DNA from: Deltaproteobacteria bacterium
Lineage (GTDB): Bacteria > Desulfobacterota > RBG-13-43-22
Assembly: GCA_016219225.1 (NCBI GenBank)
Contig: JACRBX010000159.1
Span: forward strand, 1 to 36,369
Reading direction: 5' to 3'
DNA length: 36,369 nt
The translations under genes and the position numbers were made by a program. Below are positions 1 to 6,751 of this stretch, piece after piece (the first letter of the stretch is position 1; every line of letters begins with the position of its first letter). A model generated the notes under the pieces. That model searched no databases. It had not been told where the DNA came from and saw only the letters and a program-made list of their open reading frames with translations.

Positions 1-823
1 AAAGATTATTCTTGATATCGACGCTGACCGCCTGGCCGCCTGAGTCGGTGACCGCCTTCCACATCATCTCGATCAGGGGATCGGTGGACCCACAGATGTG
101 CAGGACCTTGGGAGACCGCCAGGCCGCTAAGATGCGGGTCAGTCGGGGCGCAATCAATTCCTTGAAGGTCCTGGGACTCAGTAAATCCGCGGCTACGCCG
201 GGTTCTCTGAGGGTAATATAATCCGCCCCGGCCGCCAGGAGGGCCTTCCCGTTATTGATGATCATTTCGGTGAATTGATCCAGGATGTCCTCCACCCGGG
301 CCTTCTCCTTAAAAACCCCTTTCAGGACCTTGTCCAGCTCAATGGTTTGACCGCACTGGGTGAAAGGCCCTAATTGCCAGGCACCGAGGGCCAGCTCGGG
401 GGCTTCTTTTTTGACGATCTTGATGGCCTCGGGAATAATATTCATCGGATACCGGTCGATGAGATGCTCAATGTCATCCCGGGTAATCCTCACTTCCTCC
501 AGGGTAGTCCATTTTTTAGTGGGAATCGTCGGGTAGAGGGTATCCTCGGAATCTTCGTAAAGGCTGATTTCATTTCCCAGGGCCTGGGATTCCCAACACA
601 TATCATAGGGGATGACCACCGAATCCAGCTTGAACATGCGGGCCGATTCGATGCCCGACCAGGCCAGTCTTTCGGCATTACGGTGGACGGTGGGAAATTT
701 ATAACCCAATTTCTTGATGGCCGGACGGAGCACCATACCCATCCCGGAAAAAAAGGGCATCACATCCACCGGTTCGCGGTTAAAAAAACGTTTTACTCTT
801 TCTATAGGCGTAAGATTAGCCAT
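1..823 (-). CDS. MtaA/UroD-family corrinoid methyltransferase, C-terminus cut by window edge
   Basis: Translation from the ATG at 823 gives 274 residues with no stop before the window edge. The start MANLTPIERVKRFF is typical of the uroporphyrinogen decarboxylase/MtaA fold (Thr-Pro-x-Glu-Arg at the N-terminus). Residues 241-245 read LHICG, so H242 and C244 form the His-x-Cys part of the zinc site that MtaA-type enzymes use to activate a thiol. The third ligand, near residue 316 in MtaA, would lie beyond the window. A Shine-Dalgarno AAAGGAG precedes the ATG by about 8 nt. It lies downstream of the MtrH and GltD-like genes and is probably part of the same methyl-transfer operon. The substrate cannot be told from sequence. 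True uroporphyrinogen decarboxylase is unlikely given the zinc motif and the neighbours. Confidence 0.85.
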   Translation of the reverse strand, partial: MANLTPIERVKRFFNREPVDVMPFFSGMGMVLRPAIKKLGYKFPTVHRNAERLAWSGIESARMFKLDSVVIPYDMCWESQALGNEISLYEDSEDTLYPTIPTKKWTTLEEVRITRDDIEHLIDRYPMNIIPEAIKIVKKEAPELALGAWQLGPFTQCGQTIELDKVLKGVFKEKARVEDILDQFTEMIINNGKALLAAGADYITLREPGVAADLLSPRTFKELIAPRLTRILAAWRSPKVLHICGSTDPLIEMMWKAVTDSGGQAVSVDIKNNL

Positions 824-900
824 GGCACATACTCCTTTCTTCTTCCTCTCTGATATGTTTAAGGGTTGTTCATTTGATGGTAATTTCGCACATGAAAAAA

Positions 901-974
901 AGTTCAAGGTCCAGGTTCAAGGAAAAACCGAAACCTTCGTTAATTCCGAAATCCGCAATCCGCAATCCGAATTC
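901..974. repeat. Intergenic heptad quasi-repeat (TTCAAGG and AATCCGC words)
   Basis: Two short arrays with a 7-nt period fill half of the 149-nt gap. One (901-922) is built on TTCAAGG and the other (943-974) on AATCCGC, AATCCGC, AATCCGA. It belongs to the window-wide family described in the findings. Confidence 0.6.
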
Positions 975-2922
975 AAACCGCTATGGTTACCACCCGGTAA
1001 CAGCGCAAACAGCGCTCCGCCTCGGCCACCGCCTCGGCCGGAGAAAAACCCTGTTCCACTTCTTCAAAAGAAGCCTTCCGGGTTTCAGGGTTCAACTTTG
1101 CACCATCTTTTCGATTACGAACCTCGGAAACCTTGACCACTTCTTCCGGGTTATAAATTTTGATGGTTTTAAAAAGGAGATCGAAATAGTCGTCGTTCCC
1201 CTCTGTAAGCGGCAAACCGTTTATGAGCCGATCCATGGCCAAAGCTGCTTTTTTACCCATGGCGCCGGCCTCGATCAAGGACCGGGGGCCCAGGGCGGCA
1301 TCCCCGCCGGCAAAGAGGAAGGGATCTTCTGTTTGCAGGGTAAAGGGATCGAACTTCATCGTCCCCCATTCGGTGAGGGTGCAGGCACAGTCAGGCCCCA
1401 AACAGGCCCAGTCCGATTCCTGACCCAGGGCCGGGATGACCCCGTCCACTTCTAAAAGGAACTCCGAGCCTTCGACCGGTATGGGACGGGGACGGCCGCT
1501 GGCATCCGCCTGGCCCAAAGTCATCTTGAGACATTCGATGGCCTTGACCTTTCCATTTTCTCCAATAATACGCTTGGGGTTGGTCAACAGGTGAAACCGG
1601 ATGCCTTCGGCTTCACAGTCTTTTATTTCTTCCTCAAGGGCCGGCATTTCTTCCCGGCTCCGCCGGTAGATAATAAATGCTTCTTCGACTCCCAATCTCC
1701 GGGCTGTTCGAACCGCATCGATGGCCACATTCCCGCCGCCGATCACGGCGACACGTTTTCCCGGCATTATTTTTTCCCCTAATCGCACCTCCCGGAGAAA
1801 ATCGACTCCGGGATAAACCCCTTCCAGGTCTTCCCCGGGAAGTCCCAGTTTTTTACATTCATGGGCCCCGATGGAGATAAAAACCGCCTGGTAGCCTTCC
1901 TTTCGGAGTTGCTCGGTGGTCAGGTCCTTCCCTATTTCCAAACCGGTTTTGATCGTAACGCCCAGGTTTTGAATCGCCTCGATCTCGGACTGAACAACGG
2001 TACCGGGGAGGCGATATTCCGGGATGCCTATGGCCATCATCCCGCCGGCCAGGGGTTGTTTTTCAAAAATCGTAACCTCATGTCCTTTCAGGGCCAAATG
2101 ATAGGCGCAGGCCAGACCGGCCGGACCTGCGCCGACAATAGCCGCTTTCCCCCCCTTTTCCGAAAGGGTGACCTGAAATTCAGGCCCTTTCCCTTTTAAC
2201 CATTCCTGGTCGGCCACGAACCGTTTCAACAGCCGGATGGCAATAGGCTCATCGGCATTGGCCCGTCGGCAATGCTGCTCACAAGGGTGATAACAAACAC
2301 GGCCCACCACGCCCGGCAGGGGCAGTTTCTCGCGAATCACCCCCAGGGATTCGGGGAACTTGGCATCCTTGATCAATTCGACATACTTGGGTATGTCCAA
2401 GTGGATCGGACAGGCGTCCATGCAAGGGGCGGTCAACTTAGAATAACAGGTTACTTTCTCGCCTCCCTCCCCTCGAGTCGAAGGATGGAAGGCCTCGGGA
2501 AAATACTTCAGGGCATGGAAAAGGGGGGTTGGACCGGCCTTGCCGATGCTGCATTTGGAGCTGTCCATGACCGCTTCGGCCGCCGATTTTAAAAATTCCA
2601 GGTCCTCCTCAGTGGCCTCGCCGCTTTGGATATCGGCGATGACCTCCAACAGTTCTTTATAACCCGTGGTGCAGTAATTACATTTTCCGCAGGTCTTTGA
2701 GCTTTCATGAAGGGCTTCCAAATAGACCCGGCAGAGATCCACGATATCCAGAGCGCCGGAACGGAGAATGATCCCGTCCCAGCCGATCAAGGCCTTGATC
2801 TTTTCCTGGGCCTTAAAGGTTTCCGGTAAGTTGAAAAGGTCCGGGGATTCGTAGGTACCGGGGTCTTGCCCGCGATTATCAACCAGTCGCCCTCCCCAAG
2901 AACTAAAAACGATGTCTGTCAT
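973..2922 (-). CDS. NuoF-type iron-sulfur domain fused to GltD-type FAD/NAD(P) oxidoreductase
   Basis: A flavin and iron-sulfur oxidoreductase of about 649 residues. The first ~150 residues carry the NuoF-like 4Fe-4S binding domain, with the cysteine run TCGKCNYC and a fourth cysteine in KCSIGKAGPTP. Next come the GltD N-terminal Fe-S domain (APCMDACPIHLD and CYHPCEQHC), a FAD Rossmann motif GAGPAGLACAY, a second dinucleotide motif GGGNVAIDAVRTARRLG and the C-terminal FAD motif FAGGDAALGP. A final CLRC lies ten residues before the end. I chose the ATG at 2922 because GGGAG sits 8 nt upstream; an ATG at 2937 has no ribosome site. It follows the MtrH gene by 42 nt and so probably supplies or takes electrons in the methyl-transfer pathway, perhaps for corrinoid reactivation. 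That role is inferred. Confidence 0.85.
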   Translation of the reverse strand: MTDIVFSSWGGRLVDNRGQDPGTYESPDLFNLPETFKAQEKIKALIGWDGIILRSGALDIVDLCRVYLEALHESSKTCGKCNYCTTGYKELLEVIADIQSGEATEEDLEFLKSAAEAVMDSSKCSIGKAGPTPLFHALKYFPEAFHPSTRGEGGEKVTCYSKLTAPCMDACPIHLDIPKYVELIKDAKFPESLGVIREKLPLPGVVGRVCYHPCEQHCRRANADEPIAIRLLKRFVADQEWLKGKGPEFQVTLSEKGGKAAIVGAGPAGLACAYHLALKGHEVTIFEKQPLAGGMMAIGIPEYRLPGTVVQSEIEAIQNLGVTIKTGLEIGKDLTTEQLRKEGYQAVFISIGAHECKKLGLPGEDLEGVYPGVDFLREVRLGEKIMPGKRVAVIGGGNVAIDAVRTARRLGVEEAFIIYRRSREEMPALEEEIKDCEAEGIRFHLLTNPKRIIGENGKVKAIECLKMTLGQADASGRPRPIPVEGSEFLLEVDGVIPALGQESDWACLGPDCACTLTEWGTMKFDPFTLQTEDPFLFAGGDAALGPRSLIEAGAMGKKAALAMDRLINGLPLTEGNDDYFDLLFKTIKIYNPEEVVKVSEVRNRKDGAKLNPETRKASFEEVEQGFSPAEAVAEAERCLRCYRVVTIAV

Positions 2923-2964
2923 TATGTGCGCTCCCATCAGTGGCGGCCGTAAACAATCGATTTC

Positions 2965-4133: not shown

Positions 4134-4526
4134 TCAGGAGTCAACACGGGTCTTTGTACCTGACCCGGCTTTCTTTAAATTTTCCTGAATCTTGTCGAAC
4201 TCAAACCCCACTCCCCTCAAGGACTTGATCCGCTCGGCCATTTGAGGATTCGGGGCCCGTTTAGCCATCTCATCGATCAATTCTTCATATTGAGGGATGA
4301 TGCTTTCAAAAACGAGGTCATTCTCAATGCAGATGGTCGGCAAAACCCTGCCTTTCATTTCAATAAATTTGCCTATACCCTCTTTATTCTTGATCGACCA
4401 TTCTTTATATTCGATCATGTCCTGGACGTCTTTGGGTAAGGCGGCAATCGATTCCATCATATACCCGCAGGCCGCACATTGGACGCTGTCCAGCGTAAGA
4501 ACGCTAATCGTTATTTTATCTGCCAT
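4134..4526 (-). CDS. Thioredoxin-like protein with CAAC active site
   Basis: 130 residues. C17-A-A-C20 follows a first beta-strand (ITISVLTLDSVQ), and a cis-proline context (RVLPTICIEND) comes near residue 80, both as in thioredoxin-fold proteins. No signal peptide is present, so it is cytoplasmic. The ATG at 4526 has AAAGGAGG 8 nt upstream and begins 28 nt after the stop of the selenocysteine-type MtaA gene, so the two are co-transcribed. It may keep a thiol or selenol of the neighbouring methyltransferases reduced, or serve as a methyl acceptor. That role is inferred. No specific family name is recognised. Confidence 0.8.
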   Translation of the reverse strand: MADKITISVLTLDSVQCAACGYMMESIAALPKDVQDMIEYKEWSIKNKEGIGKFIEMKGRVLPTICIENDLVFESIIPQYEELIDEMAKRAPNPQMAERIKSLRGVGFEFDKIQENLKKAGSGTKTRVDS

Positions 4527-4554: not shown

Positions 4555-5589
4555 TTACCATTTTTCAGGATATTTGGCGTAATATTGTTCAAACCAGGCC
4601 TTGGCTTCATACGCTTGATCCATATGTTCCACCGGAACATCGTAGGGCATGTCTCAGCCAGGGGCGAAGGTAAATCCGGTGGCCCCTCCGGAAGCCAGGC
4701 TGACGATGGCGTCTTCCCGCGGAGACAGCAATCCCAGACTCAGGGCCAAGGTCAGTTTAAGATTGCCTCCAAAGCCCACTCCGTATTTGAGGGCCATATC
4801 CCGAACCCAAAGCAGATTAAGTTGTTCATCAATAGCGAAACCGTGGGTTCCGATCTTGCAAACCTCTTCCATGACCCGGGTGCAATCACCGCAAATAAAA
4901 AACGAAGAGGTTTTTCCGGCATCATGAATGGCCTTAATGGCCGGTTGGCAATTGGGGGTGACAAATTCCCTGAAGGTCTCCGGCTTAATCTGGGAAGCCA
5001 CCGGGTCAACGATGGCGATAATATCACAGCCCATTTCCGCATAAAATTTAGCTGAAAGGGCCCCGACTTCTCCGGCAAATTTGATGACTTCATGGGCCTT
5101 GGCTTTATTTTTGTAGACATCGGTAAAAATCCGCACCCCGGCCAGGTGGGAGGCCAAGGTCAAAGGACCACAAAGAAGCCCCATCATGACGCAGTCCGCT
5201 TCATCCAATAGGGGTTTGGCCAGCTTGGCGCCTTCGAAGATGGTCGGCCAGCGTCCCGAATCCTTGGTGGGAAACTTCAACCCCGAGTCGGCCAGACTTT
5301 TGTCGGATAAGGGATGGTTGGTAACCGAGGGGACGTTGTCGGGCCACCATTTCAGATCGCAGCCTACGGCATTGGCCTCCACCGAAAGATCAAAGAGCAA
5401 GGGAACGCCATCGGCATGGTATCTCTTGGCGGCGGCAACGACTCCTTTAGCCAGGAGCTGGGGGTCCTTCAAAAATTTGTCCGCTGGTTCGTTGATCAGA
5501 AAAGCGCTATGAACACCTGAATAAGGCACCCAGGGTACCGAGGCAGGTCTTTTCCCCCGATAAGCATCAATCAAATTCTGTTTAGACAT
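4555..5589 (-). CDS. MtaA/UroD-family methyltransferase, probable selenoprotein (UGA at codon 312)
   Basis: The frame opens at ATG 5589 (GGGAGGAGG upstream) and reads 311 residues to a TGA at 4656-4654. It then continues in the same frame for 32 more residues to a TAA at 4557-4555, for 344 residues in all. Around the TGA it reads T-F-A-P-G-[UGA]-D-M-P. The MtaA/UroD family normally has A-P-G-C-D-[IMV]-P here, and this cysteine is the third zinc ligand (Cys316 in Methanosarcina MtaA as I recall it). The TGA therefore most likely encodes selenocysteine. C233 matches the other cysteine ligand, but the usual histidine two residues before it is F231. The tail after the TGA (VPVEHMDQAYEAKAWFEQYY) is family-like. 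Stopping at the TGA would remove a ligand and the last helix. Decay or sequencing error is possible but less likely, given the hairpin downstream. Confidence 0.85.
4624..4656 (-). promoter_or_regulatory. Candidate bacterial SECIS element after the in-frame UGA
   Basis: A perfect 7-bp stem starts 13 nt after the TGA: ATGTTCC (4640-4634), a GGT loop (4633-4631), then GGAACAT (4630-4624). The loop begins 20 nt after the TGA and starts with G. Bacterial SECIS elements typically have a short stem whose G-containing apical loop lies about 16-37 nt from the UGA, so position and loop both fit. The stem lies wholly inside coding sequence, as it must in bacteria. Confidence 0.65.
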
Positions 5590-6088: not shown

Positions 6089-6751
6089 CTACAATTCCGG
6101 CTCCACTAACCCCAAAGAAATGGCGTAGTGAACCAACTGGGCGGGTGAATCGACTTCGAGTTTTTCCATAACCTTCTGACGATGGGTTTTGACCGTGCTG
6201 ATGCTGATACAAAGCATTTGAGAAATCTTTTTGGTGGAATGCCCTTCGGCAATGAGCTGAAAAATTTCCCGCTCCCGGTTGGAAAGCTGGTTGAACCGCT
6301 CCTCCCTCGGAGAACTCTTGCGCAGGGACAAATATCGGTCCACCAGGACCTTGGAGATCGGTGGGCTGAGAAAGGTCTCCCCTTTCATGGCCGCCTGAAT
6401 GGCATCGATGATATCCCGGCCGCTTGAATCTTTTAATAGATACCCGGATATCCCTGCTTCCAACAGCTCATGGATATAATGTTCGTGGGCATACATGGAT
6501 AATATGATGATTTTGCTTTGGGGGAGATGTTTGCGGATCCGCCGGGCCGCCTCGATGCCGTTTAGCAAAGGCATGGCAATATCCATGATCACCACGTCCG
6601 GTTTTAAGGCTAAGGACTTTTCGATGGCCATATTGCCGTTGACCGCCTCACCAATGACTTTAAACCCGGCATGATCTTCCAACAGCCTGGCCAACCCCTG
6701 ACGAACGATGGTATGATCGTCGGCGATCAATATTTTAATGGGTGGTTCCAT
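6089..6751 (-). CDS. NarL/FixJ-family response regulator
   Basis: 220 residues with an N-terminal receiver domain (ILIADDHTIVRQGL, acidic pair D11-D12, phosphoacceptor D57 in VVIMDIAMP, conserved K in YLLKDSS) and a C-terminal LuxR-type helix-turn-helix (LSNREREIFQLIAEGHSTKKI, then ISISTVKTHRQKVMEKL). It is a DNA-binding activator or repressor controlled by phosphorylation. The ATG lies inside the end of the histidine kinase gene (17-nt overlap), so the two are translationally coupled and form a cognate pair. It is the last gene before a palindromic terminator. Its targets are not evident; the beta-oxidation genes upstream in the same transcription direction are natural candidates. Confidence 0.93.
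   Translation of the reverse strand: MEPPIKILIADDHTIVRQGLARLLEDHAGFKVIGEAVNGNMAIEKSLALKPDVVIMDIAMPLLNGIEAARRIRKHLPQSKIIILSMYAHEHYIHELLEAGISGYLLKDSSGRDIIDAIQAAMKGETFLSPPISKVLVDRYLSLRKSSPREERFNQLSNREREIFQLIAEGHSTKKISQMLCISISTVKTHRQKVMEKLEVDSPAQLVHYAISLGLVEPEL

Follow-up and report, generated by a model that had tools for sequence, protein, structure and literature searches.

The window, the whole stretch of 36,369 nucleotides that was analysed, contains on its minus strand the genes and features listed in Table 1. Its URO-D/MtaA-like gene runs from position 5589 to 4555 and comprises 345 codons including the TAA stop, with codon 312 as the sole internal TGA. The sequence-only reading had described one frame with this TGA in the context FAPG-TGA-DMP, without stating the strand; re-reading of the minus-strand frame agrees with it. 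The start was placed at the ATG at 5589, behind GGAGGAGGAAAAAA, and not at the GTG of the mechanical ORF 54 bases earlier, because homologs begin at this ATG.

Table 1 Genes and sequence features in the window
Position	Strand	Feature	Basis and remarks
2..907	-	Second URO-D/MtaA-like methyltransferase	Truncated at the contig end; HxC retained (LHICGS); ATG 823 as likely start
973..2937	-	NADH/NADPH flavoprotein with NuoF-type and GltD-type Fe-S regions	Profiles; homologs in L029, L090, L091, L118
2965..3954	-	MtrH-family (MtgA-like) methyl-tetrahydrofolate/corrinoid methyltransferase	PF02007
4134..4526	-	Thioredoxin-like partner, 130 aa, CAACGYM (Cys17, Cys20)	31 bases past the last sense codon of the Sec gene
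4555..5589	-	URO-D/MtaA-like protein, 344 residues, TGA almost certainly Sec312	Frame, profiles, orthologs, AlphaFold2
4624..4640	-	SECIS-like hairpin AUGUUCC-GGU-GGAACAU	Apical loop starts 20 nt past the UGA
4654..4656	-	TGA codon (Sec312), column of the second zinc-site Cys of MtaA	Context FAPG-TGA-DMP
6089..6751	-	LuxR-type response regulator, possible operon regulator	Upstream of the operon; homologs upstream in L028, L029, L030, L089
6735..9047	-	PAS-containing histidine kinase, partner of the response regulator	Profiles, neighbourhood comparison

With the Pfam model URO-D (PF01208) the product scored 152.6 bits, above the gathering cut-off of 23.9. The top NCBIfam model was MtaA/CmuA (TIGR01463), but the score of 121.7 bits lies under the curated cut-off of 235.4, and the former assignment to the MtaA family was not upheld. 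MtaA of Methanosarcina mazei was the sole solved relative found by sequence search, its APGC being aligned to APG-U. The AlphaFold2 model (pLDDT 95.3) has MtaA as its nearest solved structure as well (4ay8, TM 0.88). For the second MtaA-like gene (2-907), the column of the zinc Cys falls beyond the contig end.

Selenocysteine at codon 312

The TGA was present at the codon-312 column in all 24 fetched orthologs reaching that codon. Ten further TGA orthologs came from searching 395 genomes within the same phylum and 399 within that of L038. L089 is a repeat of L029; in total about 34 distinct selenocysteine (Sec) orthologs are counted, which span the two phyla Desulfobacterota and Bacillota and have a conserved C-terminus. 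Since the same TGA recurs in all these sequences, its position is not due to chance. Over codons 313-341 the difference amounts to 0.346 at third positions versus 0.09 and 0.118 at first and second positions, and behind the true stop (TAA) all three positions differ at 0.62-0.70. Coding constraint runs past the TGA and ends at the TAA; the pattern named in the sequence-only reading as speaking against Sec, homologs ending at this TGA with nothing conserved beyond, was not found.

The expectation that homologs would have either Sec or Cys at this column was borne out. Besides the TGA of the about 34 orthologs, Cys is encoded in the close relatives L093 (67% identity), L141 and L142b, the latter two in genomes that have a Sec copy as well; about 5.5 kb separate L142a (Sec) from L142b (Cys). 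Genome G493, of a more distant branch, contains the Sec copy L143 and the Cys copy L127. The clade of proteins fused to a thioredoxin-like domain and the outgroup have Cys at the TGA column. One fused relative, L128 (G551, 1501-2859), differs from the others, which use Cys, by a TGA at the Sec column; this is possibly an independent gain of Sec, and the hairpin downstream of the L128 codon is not canonical. A general recoding of TGA was rejected, because TGA is the ordinary stop of neighbouring genes (frames 4134-4526 and 973-2937).

Just downstream of the UGA lies a SECIS-like hairpin whose apical loop GGU forms a G/GU apex. Synonymous entropy was calculated for 76 conserved fourfold codons in 28 Sec sequences (median 1.66 bits). 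It was lowest for V318 (GTT, 27/27) and P319 (CCG, 27/28), the codons that make up the 5' strand of the stem as far as the loop; P310 and G311, flanking the TGA, are among the next-lowest. One base pair is retained in L092 by a double change from U-A to C-G, and five orthologs (L041, L090, L091, L125, L126) have the variant GACGUUCCSGUSGAGAACG, in which the 3' arm is displaced by one base. The Cys gene L093 has GTT CCA GTC at the apex. The Sec gene L143 has the stem TTCC/GGAA, which is broken in its Cys paralog L127 (TTGC/GGAA). Covariation is weak, as the columns hardly vary: one compensatory change and 90.6% paired cells were counted, values reached by 103 of 500 shuffles. Covariation alone does not establish the hairpin. 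The folding energy is ordinary in the window (z about -1) and mostly so across the orthologs, and a search of Rfam gave no match to the hairpin.

Of the selenium machinery looked for in the genome, selA, selB and selD were detected with scores above the cut-offs, and selC in part. The selD gene (L060, G000:C203) has one in-frame TGA and thus encodes a selenoprotein itself. Of selC, the draft assembly (353 contigs) showed only a 3' part that runs from the anticodon loop to CCA (C145:145-224). This part (L107 145-224, G000:C145) stands behind unrelated sequence and looks like the result of an assembly gap or the half copy that an integrated element leaves behind (integration scar). A search with the anticodon-loop pattern of selC gave 26 matches, and ARAGORN found no tRNA at any surrounding locus. 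tRNA-Sec was above the family cut-off in 19 of 20 genomes, a count that includes this genome as the single exception; the other 19 are positive bar possible weak matches. Intact selC was found by ARAGORN in two other fetched members of the genus. Furthermore, selB was present in ten of ten other genomes checked, including those of L093 and of the fused forms L095 and L096. Hence, the use of Cys in these three is not forced by missing machinery.

The earlier proposal of Sec is thus supported by the conserved TGA, the SECIS-like hairpin, Cys in sister proteins and the presence of selA, selB and selD. UGA312 of the gene at 4555-5589 almost certainly encodes selenocysteine. That the TGA is a real stop, a sequencing error or the sign of a pseudogene, with a product of 311 residues, would be the default reading and could draw on the incomplete selC of the assembly. 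But close orthologs all have the TGA save those with a Cys codon, the C-terminus is under coding constraint and selD of the same genome carries a TGA too. This explanation is extremely improbable and refuted for practical purposes. Gene callers truncate the protein at residue 311, so that Sec and the C-terminus are lost.

Thioredoxin-like partner and gene neighbourhood

The best hint at the function comes from the thioredoxin-like partner encoded directly downstream, which was absent from the sequence-only reading. Wherever the sequence of a Sec ortholog extends past the gene, a thioredoxin-like gene with CAACGYM or CAACQYM was found 25-89 bases past the last aligned codon. Fusions of URO-D and thioredoxin-like domains were detected in 16 Cys relatives, L095 and L096 among them, and in the Sec relative L128. 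The fused domains have the motif CAACTYM or CPPCKYM, and for the L095 protein a confident fold was predicted (pLDDT 89.9). From co-occurrence and fusion, a direct redox partnership of the Sec enzyme and the thioredoxin-like protein is suggested. As most fused relatives use Cys, Sec is not essential to the chemistry of the fold. Clade members lacking the thioredoxin-like gene are only L093, L141, L142b and the tandem copy L147b, all with Cys. In G493, L143 (Sec) and L127/L144 (Cys) each have their own CAPC thioredoxin-like gene.

An MtrH-family gene adjoins the ortholog in L029, L089, L093, L041 and L142 and is nearby in L118. Orthologs of Desulfobacterota are preceded by genes for a corrinoid protein (PF02607/PF02310), a RACo-type activator, DUF6951 and DUF2284; downstream follow a Thioredoxin_3 protein, a CobW GTPase, a TrxR-like flavoprotein and often a GcvH-like protein. 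L041 adjoins an operon of MtaB-type methanol methyltransferase. In G717 (L142), annotated by similarity to genes of L041 and L116 and by eye, the order is RACo, MtrH, MtaA2, two DGC-like genes, GcvH-like, Sec-MtaA, Trx, LipA-like, dihydrolipoamide-dehydrogenase-like and GcvH-like, and further on the Cys paralog and a MIP-like channel. A corrinoid methyltransferase had been proposed in the sequence-only reading; the MtaA-like fold and the corrinoid methyl-transfer setting stood, while the TIGR01463 cut-off was not reached and the His-Cys-Cys triad is not present.

Genes for LipA-like, dihydrolipoamide-dehydrogenase-like and GcvH-like proteins lie directly behind the Sec-Trx pair in L041 (5503-8517) and L142 (8507-11464). 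A lipoyl carrier may belong to the system, judging by these neighbours. Channel genes of the MIP (aquaglyceroporin) type were observed near the Sec gene in L038 (5758-6618), L116 (1637-2473), L120 (653-1591) and L142 (14663-15514); the L116 copy was profile-tested (PF00230), the other three were assigned by similarity. The channels hint at a small uncharged substrate. SMC-N/RecF-like ATPase genes recur beside the system as well (L114 780-1817, L119 9592-10617, L118 10959-11948, L030, L034, L036). A link to an acyl-CoA mutase pathway, considered for genes beside L041, was rejected for the window; its genes of similar size encode TRAP transporter subunits and a dihydroxy-acid dehydratase.

Active site and proposed mechanism

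All Sec forms belong to a clade of 54 members (support 100/98). According to PMC10418091, S-methyltransferases of the URO-D/MtaA superfamily have a His-Cys-Cys zinc site. The His of this site, position 231, is lost in 54 of 54 members, being Phe in 53 and Tyr in L138, so that an intact zinc triad was rejected; the protein of the window has Phe231-Cys233-Sec312 instead. As Cys-bearing members lack the His too, its loss is independent of Sec. The sole invariant parts of the site are Cys233 and position 312, which is always Cys or Sec. Elsewhere in the protein, W20, F66, H148, Y183, D195 and E255 are invariant in the clade and rare outside, and D254 is common to clade and outgroup. Cys140 is common in the clade, but it is not invariant; as a substitute ligand it was weakened by its absence in L046, L092, L129, L130, L134 and L145. 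The residue had been placed at the zinc-ligand position in the sequence-only reading. This stood insofar as Sec312 occupies the column of the MtaA zinc Cys; the partner His is gone, however, so that a role as metal ligand is putative.

CobW-type metallochaperones nearby and the conserved D254 and E255 leave metal binding possible. As a tentative alternative, Sec312 would ligand zinc together with Cys233, the acidic D254/E255 and either His148 or Cys140 in place of the lost His. By activating a thiol or selenol, which might belong to the thioredoxin-like or a lipoyl protein, the metal would enable methyl transfer in either direction between this group and the corrinoid. Besides the CobW genes, the position of Sec, which falls on the ligand column in an MtaA-like fold, the occurrence of D254 in the outgroup and the invariance of E255 and H148 in the clade are consistent with such a zinc-selenolate methyltransferase. 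The spacing of 22 residues from Cys233 to Glu255 equals that from Cys643 to Glu665 in E. coli MetE, whose zinc ligands are named in PMC7857596, and places E255 near the position of Glu665. But a profile comparison with MetE gave no significant alignment, and therefore this spacing is a lead only. The loss of His231 throughout the clade and of Cys140 in six members also speaks against zinc ligation, which furthermore leaves the strict thioredoxin linkage unexplained.

With some reserve, we lean towards a Sec enzyme that is coupled to thioredoxin, belongs to a corrinoid methyl-transfer system and works with a Cys233/Sec312 pair. From the sequence comparisons, this pair is probably used by the enzyme. 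Given the lost His ligand, and with Cys233 and Sec/Cys312 as the only invariant parts of the site, a Sec nucleophile forming a selenenylsulfide appears likeliest, and the methyl-transfer setting, the strict thioredoxin link and the invariant pair suggest that this nucleophile is reset by the partner. In this mechanism UGA312 would be read as Sec by means of the hairpin just downstream, giving a URO-D/MtaA-fold enzyme of a corrinoid methyl-transfer operon with Sec312 where the active site of MtaA has its metal-side cysteine. The selenolate would be the nucleophile, which attacks the methyl donor or accepts or hands over the methyl group. During turnover Sec312 would form a selenenylsulfide with Cys233, to be reduced by the dedicated CAAC thioredoxin-like protein, whose electrons may come from flavoproteins or lipoyl proteins of neighbouring genes. 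Tetrahydrofolate would receive the methyl group by way of the corrinoid protein and then the MtrH-type protein. The redox role of the Cys-Sec pair, the direction in which methyl groups flow and the electron delivery are inferences. The zinc-selenolate and the Cys-Sec redox mechanisms differ in the predicted metal content and in the role of Cys233.

It seems unlikely that the protein is a selenoprotein other than a methyltransferase, that is, a former MtaA relative acting as thioredoxin-linked reductase or as selenium or metal carrier in a corrinoid operon. The lost His ligand and the thioredoxin, TrxR-like and lipoyl genes nearby would fit such a function, but the Sec gene is repeatedly accompanied by genes for the corrinoid protein, the RACo activator, MtrH and another MtaA-like protein. 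Going beyond the favoured thioredoxin-coupled methyl-transfer enzyme, the system could represent an unrecognised anaerobic C1 pathway, an extension we regard as rather doubtful. Here, a thioredoxin-coupled Cys-Sec enzyme with an MtaA fold lacking the zinc His would move methyl groups between a small substrate, the corrinoid protein and a selenolate or dithiol carrier. If true, such a pathway, with a thioredoxin-like or lipoyl-GcvH-like carrier, would join selenium redox chemistry to corrinoid methyl transfer.

Comparison with known systems

No URO-D, MtaA or MtrH entry is contained in the 2026 inventory of 119 prokaryotic selenoprotein families (PMC13188914), and no matching Sec model in NCBIfam of June 2026. 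A search of a library of openly accessible papers revealed no such Sec family; the Olavius symbiont families (Zhang and Gladyshev, 2007) were judged via the 2026 inventory. The protein would therefore be a new family of the prokaryotic selenoproteome, in a fold absent from that inventory. The system occurs in dozens of sulfate reducers and clostridia, including the named strain Desulfofundulus thermobenzoicus DSM 14055 (L038). Sec and Cys paralogs in one genome and natural thioredoxin fusions provide a case in which the contribution of selenium to methyl-transfer chemistry can be tested.

MtaA of M. mazei (4ay7/4ay8), a methylcobamide:CoM methyltransferase, is alike in fold, in the ICG and APG-C/U motifs and in the corrinoid context. 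In contrast, the protein described here shares 24% identity with it, has Phe for His and Sec as last Cys, is accompanied by a thioredoxin partner and does not reach the cut-offs of TIGR01463 and NF040654. A Sec enzyme coupled to a thioredoxin system (Trx, TrxR) is known from the glycine/sarcosine reductase selenoproteins GrdA/GrdB; their fold is unrelated to MtaA and no corrinoid methyl transfer is involved, which makes this an analogy only. The best named relative of the thioredoxin-like partner is the HUIPC motif thioredoxin-like (seleno)protein NF047660, whose cut-off of 105 bits was not reached (33.1 bits); the partner has CAACGYM, no HUIPC or HCIPC motif and no Sec.

For the dichloromethane mec cassette no matching Sec-MtaA or Trx component is mentioned (PMC9768040), and it was rejected as a counterpart. 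HgcA/HgcB and the CobW-related NF041053 are selenoproteins in the corrinoid or metal biochemistry of anaerobes, but belong to other families (PMC13188914). The MtaA-like proteins of type 1 mlp clusters and SdmABC of Methanococcus occur in anaerobes, often in selenium-using species, and are MtaA relatives combined with a corrinoid protein and an activator, as found here. Unlike the Sec enzyme, they keep His-Cys-Cys with few exceptions, the available parts of both sources mention no selenocysteine in Mlp, and they are tied there to the use of methyl-selenide or methyl-sulfur compounds (PMC10418091, PMC11097638).
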